A stretch of 64,000 nucleotides of DNA from Aromatoleum evansii (GTDB lineage Bacteria; Pseudomonadota; Gammaproteobacteria; Burkholderiales; Rhodocyclaceae): positions 1 to 64,000 of the forward strand of contig NZ_WTVK01000030.1 in the NCBI RefSeq assembly GCF_012910805.1. Direction: 5' to 3'. Shown one piece after another: positions 14,545-21,772 of this stretch. The stretch's first letter is position 1, and each line of letters starts with the position of its first letter. The position numbers were made by a program, and so were the translations under genes. A model generated the notes under the pieces. That model was not told the origin of the DNA. It ran no database searches and worked only from the letters and a program-made list of their open reading frames with translations.

Positions 14545-16041
14545 TCAGGCGGCGGCAGCGGCGTGGCGCTCGTGCAGCGCGCGCAGCCGGCCGCGCTGCA
14601 GCTTGCCGGTAGGCGTCAGCGGCAGCGCATCGACCCAGTGTACCCAGCGCGGACGTCGATGGCCCGGCAGTGCGCCAATGCCGTCCTCCAACCGCTGGCG
14701 CGCCTCGGCCCAGCGTCCCGGCGCGGCCACGACCAGCACCGCCAGTGCCGTCAGGCCGTCCGCCGAATCGACGCCGACTGCCGCGATCTGCTGCAGGGCG
14801 TCGCCGCAATGCGCCGCCAGCGCCTGCTCGACCCACAGCGTGCTTACCCACTGGCCGGCGATCTTCAGCATGTCGTCGTTGCGACCCGCGTATTCGAGAC
14901 GGCCATCCGCGTGGCGCAGGAACATGTCGCCGGGCGAGAACCAGCCGTTGTCGAAATCGACCTGCGCGTCGGGGCGCTTCCAGTAGCCGACCGCGACCGT
15001 GGTGTGACGCACCCAGATGCGCTGCGGCAGATCCGCATCGATGTCGGGATTGAAGCGCACCTCGGTCAGCGGCGTCGGGCGCATCAAGCCGGAGTCGTCG
15101 TCGCTGTAGAGCATCAGGCACAGCGTCTCGGAGGTGCCGTAGCCGCTGATCAGGCCGCATCCGGTCTGCTCGCGCCAGCCCTGGCGTATCGCAAGCGGCA
15201 GCGCCTCGCCGGCCGACACGAAATGGCGGATGCCGCGATCCGCGAGCCGTGCCGCCACACCCGTCTGCAGCATCTTGTTGTACAGCGTCGGGACGCTGAA
15301 GAGCAGCGTCGGGCGATGCTTCGCGACCATCTCCTCGACGCGCTCGGCCGTCGGCCAGTCGCGGTCGAGGATCACGGTGGCGCCGGCACGCAGGCCCGCG
15401 AACAGGCTGTTGCCGAGCGCGTAGGCGAAAAACAGCTTGGAGCTTGCATACAGCCGGTCCGCAGATGTCAGACCGGCGAGCTTACAGGCGAAGGAGTGGG
15501 CGTTGTCGACGACGCGCTGGACGTGGATCACCCCCTTGGGCGTGCCGGTCGTGCCGGAGGTGCCGATCCACAGGGCGGGCGCCTCGGCGTCGAGTTGCAG
15601 GGGCTCGACCTCTTCGGCACGTGCGAGCGCCTGCGTCCAGTCCCGGTCGGCGACGCCGCTGCCGACCACCGCGGGTGCACCGGGAAGGGTCGCGACCAGA
15701 CCCTGCAGGTCGTCCGCCTGCGCCGGCTCGCACCACACGAAGCGTGCCTCGCATTCCTTCAGGATGGGCGTGAGCTCAGCCATCGACAGCCGCGGATTGA
15801 CGCCGATGGCGACACCGCCGGCCCAGATCGCGCCGAGGTAGACCTCGACCCAGTCATCGCTGTCGGGCGCGAACACGACGACGCGCTCGCCGGGAGCGAG
15901 CCCCAGCGCCTGCCAGGCTCCGGCCGCGCGCCGCACACGCTCCCGCAGCTCGGCGTAGCTCACCCGCCGCTCGTCGCATTCGATGGCTATTGCGCCATCG
16001 GCGCCGACCGACAGCAGGATCTCAGCAGCATTCATTCGCAT
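14545..16041 (-). CDS. Benzoate/4-hydroxybenzoate-type aryl-CoA ligase
   Basis: The 498-residue protein belongs to the AMP-forming acyl-CoA synthetase superfamily and would activate an aromatic acid to its CoA thioester with ATP in the cytoplasm. The P-loop is IGTSGTTGTPKGV; later motifs are SGYGTSETLCLM, WFSPGDMFLRHADGRLEYAGRNDDMLKIAGQW in two parts, and the catalytic Lys in LPLTPTGKLQRGRLR. SKLFFAYALGNSLF is the substrate-pocket segment typical of benzoate-CoA ligases. The start is ATG 16041 or ATG 16035; the GGAG spacing slightly favours the latter. It follows the TRAP genes. 4-Hydroxybenzoate is the likely substrate given pchC and the AOR gene, but benzoate cannot be excluded. Confidence 0.82.
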   Translation of the reverse strand: MRMNAAEILLSVGADGAIAIECDERRVSYAELRERVRRAAGAWQALGLAPGERVVVFAPDSDDWVEVYLGAIWAGGVAIGVNPRLSMAELTPILKECEARFVWCEPAQADDLQGLVATLPGAPAVVGSGVADRDWTQALARAEEVEPLQLDAEAPALWIGTSGTTGTPKGVIHVQRVVDNAHSFACKLAGLTSADRLYASSKLFFAYALGNSLFAGLRAGATVILDRDWPTAERVEEMVAKHRPTLLFSVPTLYNKMLQTGVAARLADRGIRHFVSAGEALPLAIRQGWREQTGCGLISGYGTSETLCLMLYSDDDSGLMRPTPLTEVRFNPDIDADLPQRIWVRHTTVAVGYWKRPDAQVDFDNGWFSPGDMFLRHADGRLEYAGRNDDMLKIAGQWVSTLWVEQALAAHCGDALQQIAAVGVDSADGLTALAVLVVAAPGRWAEARQRLEDGIGALPGHRRPRWVHWVDALPLTPTGKLQRGRLRALHERHAAAAA

Positions 16042-16082
16042 CTCTCCATTCAAGGCGGACGCGGCAGCGCGCGTCCGCGGAT

Positions 16083-17402
16083 TCAACCGGTGTACTGGAC
16101 CAGGAACAGCGAAATCGGAGGGAAGAACACCAGCAACACCACGCGCAGGGCATCGGACGCCAGGAAGGGCACGATGCCGCGGAAGGTCGTCGCCATCGAG
16201 ACGTTCTTCGCGAGGCTGTTGATGATGTAGACGTTCATCCCAACCGGCGGCGTGATCAGGCCCACCTCGACCACCATCAGCGCGAGGATGCCGAACCAGA
16301 TCGCCTTGTCCGTCTGGTCGAGGCCCCAGAAATCCAGGCCCATGATCATCGGGAAGAAGATCGGGATGGTCAGCAGGATCATCGACAGGCTGTCCATCAC
16401 GCAGCCGAGGAAGACGTAGATCGTGATGATCGCGAACAGCACCACCAGCGGCGGCAGGCCCGACTGGGCGACCCACGCGGCGAGCTCGGCCGGCATCTGC
16501 GTGAGGGCGAGGAAGACGTTGAGCACGTCCGCGCCGAGCAGGATCAGAAAGATCATCGCCGTCGCCTCGGCGGCGCCGTAGAGGGCCTCCATCAGCCCGG
16601 CGAAGCGCATTCCCTTCGCCACGGCGAGGATGCCTGCGGCGATCGTCCCGACCGAGGCCGCCTCGGTCGGCGTGAAGAAGCCGCCGTAGATGCCGCCGAT
16701 CACGACGACGAAGATCGCCAGCACCGGCCAGACGTCGATCAGTGCCCGGAGGCGGACGCTCCACGGCTTGCGCTCGCCCGCAGGGCCGGCATCGGGCACG
16801 GCGCGGCAGTACAGCGCGATCACGAGCATATAGCCGATCGCGGCGAGGATGCCCGGCAGGAAGGCGGCGGCGAAGAGCTTGGAAATGTTCTGCTCGGTGA
16901 GGATCGCATAGATCACCAGCACCACCGACGGCGGAATCAGGATGCCCAGCGTCCCGCCGGCCGCCAGCGCCGCCGTGGACAGCGCGGGCGAATAGTTCAG
17001 TCGCCGCAGCTCCGGCAGCGCCACCTGCCCCATCGTCGCCGCCGTCGCGAGCGAGGAGCCGCAGATCGCACCGAAGCCCGCGCACGCGCCGACCGCCGCC
17101 ATCGCGACGCCGCCGCGGTAATGGCCGATCAGCGACTCGGCCGCGCCGAACAAGGCCTTCGACAAGCCGCCGCGCGACGCGAAGCCGCCCATCAGCAGGA
17201 AGAGCGGCACCACAGACAGGTCGTAGATCGAATAGCGTCCGTAGGCCGCGGTCTTGAGGTAGCTCAGCAGCGGGTCCCATCCCGCCAGCGTGACGTAGCC
17301 CGCCATGCCGGTGAGCAGCATGGAGATCGCGATGGGCACGCGCAGCGCCAGAAGCACCATCAGGATGCCGAAGAAGATGCCACCGATCGCGATGCCGCTC
17401 AT
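16083..17402 (-). CDS. dctM: TRAP transporter large membrane subunit
   Basis: This 439-residue DctM-type protein is very hydrophobic with about 12 segments and forms the sodium-coupled channel of a TRAP uptake system. Characteristic stretches are VPIAISMLLTGMAGYV, AVGACAGFGAICGSSLATAA and GGTLGILIPPS. The ATG overlaps the dctQ stop (ATGA). It works with DctQ and the periplasmic binder DctP encoded upstream. Neighbouring aryl-CoA ligase and MFS genes suggest that the imported solute is an aromatic carboxylate. Confidence 0.9.
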   Translation of the reverse strand: MSGIAIGGIFFGILMVLLALRVPIAISMLLTGMAGYVTLAGWDPLLSYLKTAAYGRYSIYDLSVVPLFLLMGGFASRGGLSKALFGAAESLIGHYRGGVAMAAVGACAGFGAICGSSLATAATMGQVALPELRRLNYSPALSTAALAAGGTLGILIPPSVVLVIYAILTEQNISKLFAAAFLPGILAAIGYMLVIALYCRAVPDAGPAGERKPWSVRLRALIDVWPVLAIFVVVIGGIYGGFFTPTEAASVGTIAAGILAVAKGMRFAGLMEALYGAAEATAMIFLILLGADVLNVFLALTQMPAELAAWVAQSGLPPLVVLFAIITIYVFLGCVMDSLSMILLTIPIFFPMIMGLDFWGLDQTDKAIWFGILALMVVEVGLITPPVGMNVYIINSLAKNVSMATTFRGIVPFLASDALRVVLLVFFPPISLFLVQYTG

Positions 17403-17920
17403 GCGCCTTCTCCCCGGAATTTCGTCCGCGCCGTATAGAGGGCCGTCGCCGCCAGCAGCAGGAAGGACGGGGTCATGCAGGCGTAGGCGTACCAGATCGG
17501 CACGCCGAGCAGCATCGAGGTCTCGCCGCTGTCCTTCAGCCCGACGGTGCCGATCGCCATGCGCCAGGCGACGAGGCCCGCACAGGCGGCCAGCAGCAGC
17601 GCCCCGACGCCGTCCAGGCGTGCGCGCCAGCGCGGCGACACGCCGGTGGTGAAGAAGTCGACCAGCACGTGGCTGCTGCGCATCTGCCCCCACGGCAGGA
17701 AGGCTGTGACCGCGATCGCCGAGCCGATCTGGACGAGCTCGAAGTCACCCAGCAGGGCCGTGCCCACGAACACCCGGCTGCCGATGCTGGCGACGGACAT
17801 CACCGCCACCGACAGCAGGACCAGGCCACCCGCGCCCGCGAACGCCCGCGACAGGAAAAACAAGGCGCGCCCGACCGGATCCGGCGGCGCGCATACCGGT
17901 GTTGCGATGGGTTCCGACAT
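17399..17920 (-). CDS. dctQ: TRAP transporter small membrane subunit
   Basis: The 173-residue product has four hydrophobic helices and the DctQ pattern RSSHVLVDFFTTGVSPRWR in the cytoplasmic loop. DctQ scaffolds the large subunit and contacts the substrate-loaded binding protein. The start MSEPIAT is chosen because the in-frame upstream extension is Arg-rich and lacks membrane character. It lies between dctP (121 bases) and dctM (4-base overlap). Confidence 0.87.
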   Translation of the reverse strand: MSEPIATPVCAPPDPVGRALFFLSRAFAGAGGLVLLSVAVMSVASIGSRVFVGTALLGDFELVQIGSAIAVTAFLPWGQMRSSHVLVDFFTTGVSPRWRARLDGVGALLLAACAGLVAWRMAIGTVGLKDSGETSMLLGVPIWYAYACMTPSFLLLAATALYTARTKFRGEGA

Positions 17921-18041
17921 GTGCGGGCACTCCCGTGAGATGGGGCGCCGGACGGCAGCCCGGATCGGCTGCGGTCGAACGACGCCCGGAAAAGTGCGTG
18001 CGGCGGATGACGCCCGCAGGCGCATCCGCCCTGCTCGACAC

Positions 18042-19100
18042 TCAGAGCGGGTCGTATTTCCCGACCAGCGTCTGCGCGCTCTTCAGCAGCGCCTTGCCGT
18101 CGTAGCCCTTGCCCGACACCTCGGAGACCCACGAGTCGTACACCGCCTGCCCCGCCTTCTCCCAGGCCTGGAGCTCGACTGCCGGGACGACGTTGAACTG
18201 GTTGCCGCGGTCGGAGGCGAGCTTGCGCGCGTTGGCCGCCGACTCGTCCCACACCTTGCCGACCCAGGCCGACGCCTCGGCACCGCCGTTGGCATCGATC
18301 ACTGCCTTCAGGTCCGCAGGCAGCGACTGGTACTTCGCCTTGTTCATCGCAAAGATGAAGGCCGTCGTGTACAGCGCGCGCGCCTTCGCATCGCCCTCGC
18401 TGTGGAACTTCACGAGCTCCTGCGCCTTCACCGCCGGCACCACTTCCCACGGCAGCATCGCGCCGTCGATCACCCCCTTCGACAGCGCCTCCGACACCTG
18501 CGGCACGGGCATGCCGACCGGTGTCGCACCCAATGCGGCAAGGAACTTGTTGGTCTGGCGCGTCGGCGCCCGCAGCTTCAGGCCGCGGAAGTTCGCCAGC
18601 GTCGTGATCGGCCCCTTCACCAGATGCAACTGTCCGGCGTCATGCACATGGAACAGGATCGGATGCACGTCCTTGAACTCGATCTGGTCGAGCTTGTTCT
18701 CGTGCACGTACTCCCACAGCGCGCGGCTCGACGCCTCTGCCTTATTGATCATGAAAGGCAGCTCGAACACCTCGACGGCCGGGAAGCGCCCCGCGCTATA
18801 GCCGGGCAGGGTCCACACGATGTCGGCGACACCGTCGCGCACCTGGTCGATCAGCTGCGGCGGCGTGCCGCCGAGCTGCATCGCCGGGTAGATCTGGCAT
18901 TTCAAGCGCCCCGCGGACTCCTTGTTGATCTTGTCGCACCACGGCGTGATGAACTTCGCGTGGGCCGTCGAGCCCGGCGGCAGGAAATGCGCGACCTTCA
19001 GCGTCACCTCCTGCGCGCCGGCCACGCCACACACCGCCGCCAGCAGCCCGCCAGCGAGAACCCCGAAAATCCTTCTTGCCTTCCCGATACGTGTGCTCAT
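18042..19100 (-). CDS. dctP: TRAP transporter periplasmic solute-binding protein
   Basis: The 352-residue DctP-family binder has a signal peptide (FGVLAGGLLAAVCGVAGAQE, cleaved after AGA). The mature protein shows VTLKVAHFLPPGST, the GRLKCQIYPAMQLGG region, LKLRAPTRQTNKFLAALGATPVGMP (the segment with the carboxylate-binding Arg) and DGAMLPWEV. AGGAGGAGA precedes the ATG. It is the first gene of the minus-strand row dctP-dctQ-dctM-ligase-permease-kinase-regulator and is divergent from the AOR gene. An organic acid ligand is certain from the family; an aromatic one is inferred from context. Confidence 0.9.
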   Translation of the reverse strand: MSTRIGKARRIFGVLAGGLLAAVCGVAGAQEVTLKVAHFLPPGSTAHAKFITPWCDKINKESAGRLKCQIYPAMQLGGTPPQLIDQVRDGVADIVWTLPGYSAGRFPAVEVFELPFMINKAEASSRALWEYVHENKLDQIEFKDVHPILFHVHDAGQLHLVKGPITTLANFRGLKLRAPTRQTNKFLAALGATPVGMPVPQVSEALSKGVIDGAMLPWEVVPAVKAQELVKFHSEGDAKARALYTTAFIFAMNKAKYQSLPADLKAVIDANGGAEASAWVGKVWDESAANARKLASDRGNQFNVVPAVELQAWEKAGQAVYDSWVSEVSGKGYDGKALLKSAQTLVGKYDPL

Positions 19101-19447
19101 TTGTCTCCTCCTCCTGCTGCGTCTGTCGGCAACTGGTTGTTGCGCACAATAGGTCCGTGGCGACGGGCCCACAATACGCCAGGGGAACTTTCTCCACCTG
19201 ATTTGATGGATGTCAAATTATCTTGCAGTGCACGAAAACCCGCTGCCGGCAATTTCCCGACGCCGGCCGAAGTGCATCCTGCGCCGCGCCTTGAATCCGC
19301 TCCGAATCCGCCAGACCGCCCCTCCTTCACGCCCCGCCAACCGAGACGCGCCGCCTCCCCCTGCAAAAAGACCATCCCTTTTTTGTTTGACTTCAAACTG
19401 TTTTAAAGCCACACTACATCCAGCCAACAGGAAAACAGGAGACAGTT
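19101..19447. other. Divergent intergenic region dctP / aldehyde oxidoreductase
   Basis: This 347-base gap carries the promoters of both divergent units. On the minus strand a weak -24/-12-like element is at 19167-19182. On the plus strand TTGACT at about 19389 precedes the AOR gene, without a convincing -10. AGGAGA stands in front of the AOR ATG. I see no gene and no clear copy of the CAGACAC dyad found at pchC. Confidence 0.5.
19167..19182 (-). promoter_or_regulatory. Possible sigma-54 promoter of the dctP row
   Basis: CTGGCGTATTGTGGGC keeps GG and GC at ten-base spacing (TGGCGT-N5-GGGC). The -12 core GGGC differs from TTGC, so it is weaker than the pchC element. It lies 67 bases from the dctP ATG. 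Confidence 0.35.
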
Positions 19448-21772
19448 ATGGGGATCAGGGACAAGGTCGAACAACTGTGGGCACGCCTGCACGACACACC
19501 GCAGTACGATACTCAGGGCGCTGTCCTGTTCGTCGACCTCGAAAAGCGCGAAACGCAGCGCAAGTACCTGCCGCTAGAAGTGTTGCGCACCTACCTCGGC
19601 GGACGCGGCGCCAATATGTATCTGCTGTACAACCTGCTGCAGGACGGACGCGAAGCCCTCGACCCCGAGATCCCCCTGATCTTCGGCGCCGGCACCCTCA
19701 CCGGCGACATGCCGGCCGCCACCCGCGGCAACTTCACCAGCCGCTCGCCCGAGAGCGACGCGATCCTCGACACCAACGGCGGCGACTACTTCCCGTCCTT
19801 CGTCAAACGCCACGGCTACGACCACATCGTGCTGTACGGCCTGGCCCCGCAATGGACTTTGCTGCGCATCGCGCATGACGAAGTGCAGTTCATTGACGCG
19901 ACCCCCTATGTCGGCCTCGACAACCTCGACCTGCCCGGCGCCATCGAACGCGACTTCGAATGCACCGAGCGCAAGGACATGGCCCTCGCCCGCATCACCA
20001 CCGCGGGGGAGAACCTCGCGCTGTGCAGCGGCATCATGGGCGGGATCAAGGCGATCTGGGCGCGTGGCGGCGGCGGCGCGAAGATGGGTTCGCTGCGCCT
20101 GAAGGCCATCATGGTGCACGGCAAGCCGGACGAAGCGCCGAAGGTGGCCGAGCTCAAGGCGCACAACAAGGTGATCGGCAAGAAGATCACCTCGACCTCG
20201 GTGATCAAGAACGCCCTCAAGCAGGTCGGCACGCCCTTCCTGTACAAGCCCTCGCGCGTGCTGGGCGCGCTCGGTACGCTGAACAACCAGAAGACGGATT
20301 GGCACCCGACGCTCGACGCGGACAACTTCGACCCCTACCGCCCCGGCATGGACGGCTGCTTCAAGTGCCCGGTGCATTGCCGCAACCTCAACGACATGAC
20401 CCCCGAGGGCAAGGGCGGCTGGGGCTCGGCCGCGCTCAAGGGCCTGAAGGGCAACGCCAGCTACGACAAGGCCCAGGCCGACGTCGAGCACGGCAAGCAG
20501 CGCACCTACAACGGCATCCATGGTGACGGCAAGTTCGACCAGTACGACAAGGGCGACGGTCCCGAGTACGTCACCGTGGGCAAGTTCGGCCCGATGATCG
20601 GCCTGAAGGAGCCGGAGCACATCCTGCGCCTCAACAACATCCTCAACGACCTCGGCCTCGATTCGGCCTCGACCGGCAGCGCGATCGCCTGGGCGATGGA
20701 GCTGTGGCAGCGCGGCATCATCGACGCGAGCCACACCGGCGGGCTGGACCTGTCCTGGGGCAACTACGAGACGGTCGAGAAACTGCTGTTCATGACCGCG
20801 AAGCGCGAAGGCTTCGGCGACACCATCGCCGACTCCACCCGCGCAGTCGAGCGCGGCAAGTACCCGGCCGCAGCCCTCGACTACCGCATGGCGGTGAAGG
20901 GCCTGTTCCAGTCGGACCCGCACGACGCCCGCATCCTCAAGGCCTTCGCGCTGGGCCTGTCAGTCGCCACGCGCGGCATGGACCACCTCAGGAACCGCGT
21001 CACGCTGGAGATCAACGCCCGCATCAACGACGACGCCCCGTTCAAGACCGAACTCTACGGCGGCACCGTCGCCGCCGAGCCGAACCGCTACGACGGCAAG
21101 GAATTCGCGGTGCGCCGCTGCGAGAACACCTTCGCCGTCGGCGACTCGGTGGGCATGTGCCGTTTCAACACCAAGCTGTTCAACTCCCCGACCACCCCCG
21201 ACTGCGGCGACTTCGCGACCCAGCTGACGACCGCCACCGCGCACGAATTCACCGGCGAGCAGCTCAACGAGATCGGCCGCAACATCACCGGCCTGGAGCG
21301 CCTGATCAACTTCCGCCTCGGCCTGCGCGCCAAGGACGACACCCTGCCGAAGCGCTGGTTCGAGGAAGAGATCGAGGTCGGCCCCTTCAAGGGCGAGAAG
21401 GTCGATCGCAAGGAATTCGAGGCGATGAAGGCGCGCTTCTACGAAGTCACCGGCCTGAACGCCGAAGGCGTGCCCAAGGCGGACTGGCACGAGCAGCTCG
21501 CCGCGGCCACCACCGGCTTCGCGGTGAGGGTCGAACTGCCGCAGGTGCTGCCCGGCGCGCCGGAAAAGGCGATCGTGATCGACGAACCGGTCGCCAACGT
21601 CGTCGCGCTGCGCGACGCACTGGCCCGCCGCCTGCCCGAAGCCCGCGAGGCGCTCAACGACCACTCGTGGAACATCGCGGTCAACGGTCACATGGTGCTG
21701 GCAGGCGAGCGCGACACTGCCCTGCACCACGGCGACCGCGTGGCCTTCGTGCCGATCATCGCCGGAGGCTGA
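19448..21772 (+). CDS. Aldehyde:ferredoxin oxidoreductase with fused C-terminal MoaD/ThiS-like domain
   Basis: This 774-residue tungsten (or molybdenum) bis-pterin enzyme would oxidise an aldehyde, probably 4-hydroxybenzaldehyde from p-cresol, to the acid. Residues 1-690 are the AOR fold: LGGRGANMYLLY, GAGTLTGDMPAATRGNF, CFKCPVHC with Cys304, Cys307 and Cys311, and the fourth [4Fe-4S] ligand Cys571 in DSVGMCRF. Usual AORs end near 600-650 residues. Here residues about 693-774 form a beta-grasp domain (SWNIAVNGHMV, LHHGDRVAFVPIIAGG) ending in Gly-Gly, as in MoaD, the sulphur carrier of pterin cofactor synthesis. No ferredoxin or FAD subunit gene is adjacent. AGGAGA precedes the ATG. Substrate is inferred from context. 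Confidence 0.88.
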   Translation: MGIRDKVEQLWARLHDTPQYDTQGAVLFVDLEKRETQRKYLPLEVLRTYLGGRGANMYLLYNLLQDGREALDPEIPLIFGAGTLTGDMPAATRGNFTSRSPESDAILDTNGGDYFPSFVKRHGYDHIVLYGLAPQWTLLRIAHDEVQFIDATPYVGLDNLDLPGAIERDFECTERKDMALARITTAGENLALCSGIMGGIKAIWARGGGGAKMGSLRLKAIMVHGKPDEAPKVAELKAHNKVIGKKITSTSVIKNALKQVGTPFLYKPSRVLGALGTLNNQKTDWHPTLDADNFDPYRPGMDGCFKCPVHCRNLNDMTPEGKGGWGSAALKGLKGNASYDKAQADVEHGKQRTYNGIHGDGKFDQYDKGDGPEYVTVGKFGPMIGLKEPEHILRLNNILNDLGLDSASTGSAIAWAMELWQRGIIDASHTGGLDLSWGNYETVEKLLFMTAKREGFGDTIADSTRAVERGKYPAAALDYRMAVKGLFQSDPHDARILKAFALGLSVATRGMDHLRNRVTLEINARINDDAPFKTELYGGTVAAEPNRYDGKEFAVRRCENTFAVGDSVGMCRFNTKLFNSPTTPDCGDFATQLTTATAHEFTGEQLNEIGRNITGLERLINFRLGLRAKDDTLPKRWFEEEIEVGPFKGEKVDRKEFEAMKARFYEVTGLNAEGVPKADWHEQLAAATTGFAVRVELPQVLPGAPEKAIVIDEPVANVVALRDALARRLPEAREALNDHSWNIAVNGHMVLAGERDTALHHGDRVAFVPIIAGG

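Follow-up and report, generated by a model that had tools for sequence, protein, structure and literature searches.

A gene at 19448–21772 on the forward strand of the window (the whole stretch of DNA analysed, 64 kb of Aromatoleum evansii, assembly GCF_012910805.1, contig NZ_WTVK01000030.1, positions 1 to 64,000) encodes an AOR/WOR-family enzyme with a ThiS/MoaD tail and Gly-Gly at its exact end. The fusion is real and conserved, and it has been noted before in print. In our judgement the chances are about even that the tail is a client-dedicated sulfur carrier, serving the metallopterin cofactor of its own enzyme. MoaD-like helper genes are frequent neighbours of tungsten-enzyme genes, and the fusion offers a simple way to test how such a helper serves one particular enzyme – being natural, it makes the carrier-to-client question a one-gene experiment.

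The AOR-MoaD architecture has been known since 2006. Iyer, Burroughs and Aravind (PMC1779556) noted the fusion of Azoarcus in a remark in the text ('might be fused'), in one of their tables ('In Azoarcus, the MoaD is fused carboxyl-terminal') and in Figure 3. The order is the same, with MoaD C-terminal to AOR, the genus is related, and the Azoarcus fusion probably belongs to the same orthologous group as the window gene. These passages of PMC1779556 carry no analysis of distribution, GG conservation, origin or active site, all of which are given here. New are the kinship of the tail with WorX, a GG that is free without cutting, and the replacement of the residues at the Glu313, Tyr427 and Tyr452 positions. 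No experimental study or biochemistry of the fused protein was found in the open-access literature, subscription papers lying mostly outside the search.

The fused protein and its tail

The ORF is intact and encodes 774 amino acids, with the stop codon counted in its coordinates. AFOR_N (residues 25–225, 19520–20122, Pfam 1.7e-44) and AFOR_C (residues 241–684, 20168–21499, Pfam 3.3e-89) are both present, the domain pair by which the family was collected according to the text of PMC13328260. They are followed by a MoaD/WorX-like beta-grasp domain (residues 693–774, 21524–21769), recognised by Pfam, AlphaFold2, Foldseek and a sequence profile of the tail. The Pfam match is to ThiS (residues 710–774, 4.6e-09, 37.1 bits against a cut-off of 22.5) and reaches the last residue; the final Gly773-Gly774 lies at 21764–21769. 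The closest named relatives are Aromatoleum/Azoarcus proteins, at 97% identity.

With 33 aligned fused sequences as input, AlphaFold2 produced a model with a pTM of 0.87 and a mean pLDDT of 78.9. Residues 693–769 are modelled as strand-strand-helix-helix-strand-strand-strand (86–94 pLDDT per block), inside a stretch (661–770) with a pLDDT of 86–96 per ten-residue block. The last block (771–774) has a pLDDT of 47, and the GG end is predicted to be flexible or disordered. In Foldseek, the whole model matched nine AOR-family chains at E < 0.001, and after these MoaD, MPT-synthase and CysO chains (E 0.009–0.19, probability 1.00). The MoaD chains 1nvi_D and 1fm0_D had a probability of 1.00, a TM by target of 0.76–0.77 and an rmsd of 2.6–2.7, with 29–30% identity over 85 columns and an E of only 0.009–0.027, and the MoeB-bound MoaD 1jwb_D had a TM of 0.68 (E 0.11).

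The Foldseek table for the whole model gives no query ranges, and the AOR N-terminal module itself has beta-grasp folds (PMC1949818). What ties the MoaD matches to the tail is its own sequence profile, which retrieves the same MoaD chains. At 2e-5 to 3e-4, this profile matched 4n6e_B (CysO), M. tuberculosis CysO and E. coli MoaD; E. coli ThiS (1f0z) followed at 0.0016. The fused protein scored 23.4 bits against the MoaD equivalog TIGR01682, below the curated 66.15. Assignment to the ThiS type or to the MoaD/CysO type is not clear-cut: the matches to solved structures are mostly to MoaD, MPT-synthase and CysO, but E. coli ThiS is among them and the highest-scoring other Ubl of the A. evansii genome is ThiS-type.

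All 38 complete fused proteins found end exactly in GG, and 3 further fused homologues are cut by contig ends. A chance event or assembly artefact is ruled out, since the 38 complete fused genes come from separate assemblies and every one ends in GG. With a predicted beta-grasp fold and a free C-terminal Gly-Gly, the tail has the features expected of a ThiS/MoaD carrier. The preliminary description of this DNA had proposed a C-terminal beta-grasp domain ending exactly in GG, staking the proposal on the predicted fold of residues 693–774 and on conservation of the GG in homologues; the proposal is borne out on both counts.

Conservation outside the GG is much lower in the tail. In an alignment of 33 of the 38 complete fused proteins (five near copies excluded), 5 of 82 tail positions are invariant (P698, N746, G762, G773 and G774), against 206 of 686 positions in the enzyme part. 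When eight Aromatoleum-type genes were compared with the window gene, dN/dS was 0.105–0.259 for the tail and 0.054–0.144 for the enzyme part, and the tail had the higher value in all eight comparisons. The tail evolves faster than the enzyme part, yet under purifying selection.

The two parts meet without a long linker at residues 687–692 (...TTGFA, 21506–21523). The junction motif is TGF or TGY in 37 of the 38 fused proteins and RGF in one, and the blocks 681–690 and 691–700 have pLDDT values of 96 and 94. The junction and the order of the domains leave the GG free without cleavage. A cut near residue 690, which the preliminary description had raised and which would release the tail as a free carrier, is highly improbable. 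Unfused relatives do carry the same carrier as a free protein, and the A. evansii genome has two Prok-JAB matches, one of them in a Ubl-ThiF cluster (C324). Against this, the junction is short, conserved and well predicted, it lacks a GG, and a C-terminal carrier exposes its GG uncut. In the text of PMC8832034, JAMM cleavage is reported for MoaD-MoaE fusions; there too a carrier is joined to an enzyme, but it is N-terminal and must be cut free.

Distribution and origin of the fusion

The wider search for AOR-MoaD fusions that the preliminary description had called for returned a clade of 38 complete fused members, 3 cut members and 8 unfused members. In a class-wide sample of 369 genomes, 52 had any match at E 0.001 (one of these to the tail only), and 9, including A. 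evansii itself, had the clade – 8 at full length and 1 cut by a contig end. The order sample yielded 3 of 300 genomes at E 1e-100, again including A. evansii; at E 1e-80, A. evansii was the sole genome matched among the 398 of the phylum sample. For the phylum of the Acidobacteriota locus the count was 9 of 347 at E 1e-60, made up of 8 clade members and 1 more distant relative. Samples around two other loci (L068 and L067) gave 1 of 195 and 1 of 329, only the source genomes themselves. A scan of genome contigs found 31 loci (28 complete fused, 2 cut and 1 unfused). AOR relatives occur in 85 plasmid records, all at less than 60% identity; among the 30 of these 85 that were listed, only that of Thermovirga (H4) extends to residue 774, and it does so over two annotated genes.

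All eight unfused members are from Acidobacteriota, and in every one the enzyme gene is followed downstream by a separate MoaD-like (WorX) ORF with the same orientation. This ORF adjoins the enzyme gene in seven, either overlapping it slightly or leaving a gap of up to about 50 bases, and lies about 0.4 kb off in the eighth (L094). A genetic tie between carrier and large subunit, like that of WorX to worL, is therefore found throughout the clade, as a fusion in 38 members and as a linked gene in all 8 unfused ones. The idea that the MoaD-like gene is separate in relatives holds for these eight, as it does for the classical aor cluster in A. evansii, but not for the 38 complete members from Pseudomonadota and Myxococcota, which are fused. 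Six of the eight separate WorX proteins end exactly in GG. The other two, encoded in L069 (9456–9722) and L099, have two residues past the GG (AL, RP), implying a trimming step or a tolerated extension.

With the tail profile (HMMER), the eight separate WorX proteins scored 43–82 bits and seven other Ubls of the A. evansii genome 6–25 bits. Judged by these scores, the closest kin of the tail are the separate WorX/MoaD genes of the eight Acidobacteriota relatives. Among the A. evansii Ubls, a ThiS-type protein was highest (25.0 bits), ahead of AorD (17.6) and MoaD (16.0), so the tail's kinship is no specific pointer to the MoaD pathway. The comparison leaves out one further Ubl-type match in this genome (L012, 22.4 bits), which lies inside a 767-aa open frame that we take to be a RelA/SpoT-type protein. 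Derivation of the tail from the host's own MoaD is disfavoured by the 16.0 bits of that protein against 43–82 for WorX.

Enzyme distances and tail or WorX distances are correlated (r = 0.92, 46 members). Without the eight Aromatoleum-type near copies the value is 0.89 over 38 members, and none of 2000 permutations was as high. Such a correlation is expected for inherited neighbours and shows linkage, not function. On the enzyme tree the fused state requires two changes, and one change sufficed in 1% of 200 bootstrap trees; a single fused clade had an AU p of 0.048, which is borderline, with long branches. At the junction, however, the two fused lineages have the motif [TR]G[FY] in common. Given the two-change tree and the common motif, the sequences are compatible with two fusions and with one fusion and one split, and both histories remain.

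Sulfur carriers and possible roles of the tail

The A. evansii genome has a MoeB-type ORF of 258 aa (C133), named from its ThiF match, four additional ThiF-family matches, and a single MoaE match, beside the housekeeping MoaD (C77). It also has an aorA-aorB-aorC-like cluster (C44; L073 10279–14335) whose MoaD-like gene stands apart and encodes a protein ending in GG; this cluster provides a natural internal control within the same genome. A TupB-like permease near these classical aor genes scored 161 bits, below the cut-off of 320. A further locus (C324; L009 1073–2937) encodes a JAB-family ORF of 138 aa followed by a 538-aa ORF with a Ubl domain (internal ...VPAVAGGAGG) and ThiF, together a compact Ubl/E1/protease set; part of the 538-aa ORF is presumably rhodanese-like.

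As a dedicated carrier, the tail would make the protein a stand-alone metallopterin enzyme of the WOR/AOR family joined by gene fusion to its own WorX. The free C-terminal Gly-Gly would be adenylated by MoeB and then thiocarboxylated, and the thiocarboxylate would give sulfur for the dithiolenes of the metallopterin, with its putative metal, bound by the same polypeptide. Docking of the tail on MoaE would be the simplest route. The fusion would fix one carrier to each enzyme and bring cofactor synthesis to the client, and the attached enzyme would retain the product.

Of the three roles that the preliminary description offered for the tail (sulfur supply for the dithiolene, a cis chaperone for cofactor insertion, and clipping), sulfur supply is best supported and clipping is disfavoured. 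The domains and the predicted fold, with matches that include MoeB-bound MoaD, are consistent with sulfur supply by a dedicated carrier, as is a GG kept in 38 of 38 proteins in an otherwise variable tail. The WorX profile kinship, the distance correlation, purifying selection on the tail, and the MoeB-type and MoaE genes also argue for it. Several observations argue against: the single MoaE adjoins the housekeeping MoaD and has no tie to the tail; dN/dS is higher for the tail than for the enzyme part in all eight comparisons; the ThiS-type Ubl outscores AorD and MoaD; and two of the eight separate WorX proteins run two residues past the GG.

Published systems bear on the question from several sides. 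WorX is described in the text of PMC13328260 (2026) as a separate protein beside Class I and IV WORs, and a role in pterin synthesis for the separate carrier gene is predicted both there and in the 2006 text of PMC1779556. The main text of PMC13328260 has no terms beginning with 'moa' and no 'fusion', and uses 'fused' once, for ModBC. Like the tail, WorX and the AorD/AorE of PMC6365974 are ThiS/MoaD-like carriers genetically tied to a WOR large subunit; unlike it, they are separate genes. The AOR of A. aromaticum was purified without its MoaD-like AorD/AorE, as reported in the text of PMC6365974, and a lasting link to the carrier is therefore not needed in general. Growth of T. kodakarensis that depends on the tungsten enzyme GOR requires UblB, including its GG; the text of PMC11323500 calls the mechanism linking carrier to target unknown. 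An actinobacterial sulfite reductase with a fused ThiS-like domain, mentioned in PMC1779556, resembles the window protein in having a sulfur carrier joined to an enzyme.

The fusion might do no more than ensure equal synthesis of the two parts, with the tail standing in for MoaD in supplying the general MPT pool and not favouring the enzyme it is joined to. According to the text of PMC11323500, AOR and FOR of T. kodakarensis can be served by each of its three Ubls, and one MoaE match has to suffice for all the carriers in the A. evansii genome. We nevertheless hold this to be unlikely: a canonical MoaD already stands beside MoaE in the genome, and the tail has diverged in step with the enzyme, a pattern that inherited linkage would produce by itself. 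Conjugation of T. kodakarensis Ubls to target proteins is also described in the text of PMC11323500, and the Ubl-ThiF/JAB cluster of A. evansii would be in keeping with a tail that is a docking or folding domain, or whose GG allows the enzyme to be attached to other proteins in the manner of ubiquitin. An invariant GG would be superfluous in a pure docking domain, and a role of this kind is very unlikely.

A bolder reading than the client-dedicated carrier dispenses with MoaE. The thiocarboxylate would pass its sulfur directly to an enzyme-bound precursor or metal centre, in its own or a partner subunit. Permanent one-to-one attachment and the flexible GG end in the AlphaFold2 model would suit such sulfuration on the enzyme. 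A beta-grasp domain has its N-terminus at one end and its C-terminal tail at the other. Since the enzyme is attached at the N-terminus, the GG is expected to point away from the attached enzyme, barring a swing of the domain or service to a different subunit, and direct transfer is rather unlikely. Sulfite reductase, the partner of the fused ThiS-like domain mentioned above, itself produces sulfide.

The enzyme part and its gene neighbourhood

The residues expected of the AOR/WOR family are conserved. The predicted [4Fe-4S] ligands are the CxxCxxxC cysteines C304, C307 and C311 (20357–20380) and C571 (21158–21160), which align with C288/C291/C295 and C494 of P. furiosus AOR (PfAOR), presumably the ligands of its [4Fe-4S] cluster. 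These four cysteines are kept in all 46 clade members (38 fused and 8 unfused) and in all 23 other AORs compared (the AorB of A. evansii and 22 loci), as are D405 and D566, two conserved Asp to which we assume roles in AOR/WOR enzymes.

The second shell of the active site is different. The residues given for aldehyde oxidoreductases in the text of PMC12096430 and PMC13328260 are Thr243, Glu313, Tyr427 and His448 (PfAOR numbering, used here also for Tyr452). All 46 clade members retain equivalents of Thr243 and His448, and none of them has Glu at 313 or Tyr at 427. The place of Glu313 is taken by V375 in the window protein (20570–20572), with V in 44 clade members, S in 1 and T in 1, against E in 22 of the 23 other AORs. 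H492 (20921–20923) stands at the place of Tyr427, with His in 46 of 46, against Y in 22 of 23; a single outgroup sequence (L102) is the lone exception among the other AORs in both columns. At Tyr452, all 46 clade members have Arg, and 22 of the 23 other AORs have Tyr, the remaining one having Arg. In the text of the 2025 review PMC12096430, Glu313 is the proton acceptor of the proposed aldehyde mechanism and one characterised AOR has His for Tyr427.

Replacement of the residues at the Glu313, Tyr427 and Tyr452 positions in all 46 members makes it probable that the enzyme is something other than an ordinary aldehyde oxidoreductase. This weakens the functional name 'aldehyde oxidoreductase' used in the preliminary description, and only 'AOR/WOR family' is kept. 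A clade without the Glu of the proposed mechanism may hold a tungsten or molybdenum reaction outside those assigned. Taking this further, the protein could be a self-sulfurating metalloenzyme, in which the thiocarboxylate on each or a partner chain makes or repairs the pterin dithiolene or a metal-sulfur ligand in place, on an enzyme performing chemistry beyond plain aldehyde oxidation; we regard this as improbable.

Confidence in the model is low over the catalytic half, with pLDDT below 50 at residues 251–280, 294–314, 323–350, 371–374, 491–494 and 503–522, so no active-site geometry is claimed and the residue comparisons rest on sequence alignments. The AORs of A. aromaticum (8c0z) and P. 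furiosus (1aor) share with the window enzyme a common fold, the cluster cysteines and the Thr243 and His448 equivalents, at 24% and 27% identity in the Foldseek alignments. They differ from it at the Glu313, Tyr427 and Tyr452 positions and by an insert of about 50 residues (317–366, 20396–20545), which follows the cluster cysteines of the window protein. Across the alignments, the insert is present in the 31 Pseudomonadota sequences among the 33 aligned fused proteins. It is 50 residues long in the window, L018 and L019, and 56 in the unfused Acidobacteriota L094; the same region has 9–16 residues in two fused Myxococcota proteins, the other seven unfused members and the A. evansii AorB. BamB and YdhV have an extra Cys ligand to the metal (Cys322 and Cys336, text of PMC12096430). 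In the alignment of 33 fused proteins, only C304, C307, C311 and C571 are invariant Cys, with C558 nearly so; BamB aligned (HMMER) over its N-terminal part only.

The fused gene appears to stand alone, with no AorA- or AorC-like gene seen beside it within the 64-kb window. No Moco/Tuco riboswitch was found between 17000 and 24000, where three matches to other families all fell below their gathering scores. Divergent TRAP-transporter genes (DctM, DctQ and DctP; 16083–19172, reverse strand) lie upstream and serve as context. DctP is supported by TRAP_S1 (95.5 bits, above the cut-off of 50), DctQ has a weak match only (27.6 bits against a cut-off of 260), and the DctM stretch, without an NCBIfam match, is named from its place and sequence. 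A benzoate/3-hydroxybenzoate-CoA ligase-like gene (14545–16140, reverse strand), also context, has HbdA as its top NCBIfam match (356.6 bits, below the cut-off of 1000). Downstream of the fused gene are long ORFs on the opposite strand, which look to us like an RND efflux operon.

Neighbours were surveyed at 48 loci with a crude gene caller, some loci being short-flanked and one representative being annotated per cluster. The recurring neighbours were MarR (16 loci), two kinds of TRAP component (12 each) and CoA ligases of two families (11 each). A 2-oxoacid:acceptor oxidoreductase is encoded near the fused gene, with the alpha subunit at 15 of the 48 loci and the beta subunit at 9, hinting at a ferredoxin-linked electron supply. 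The loci with an alpha-subunit gene include L052, L053, L057, L058, L113, L114, L117 and L118. At six of the eight unfused loci there are proline-racemase-family and ornithine-cyclodeaminase-family genes. The neighbours, going by their family assignments, point to aromatic-acid and amino-acid catabolism rather than to one single substrate.
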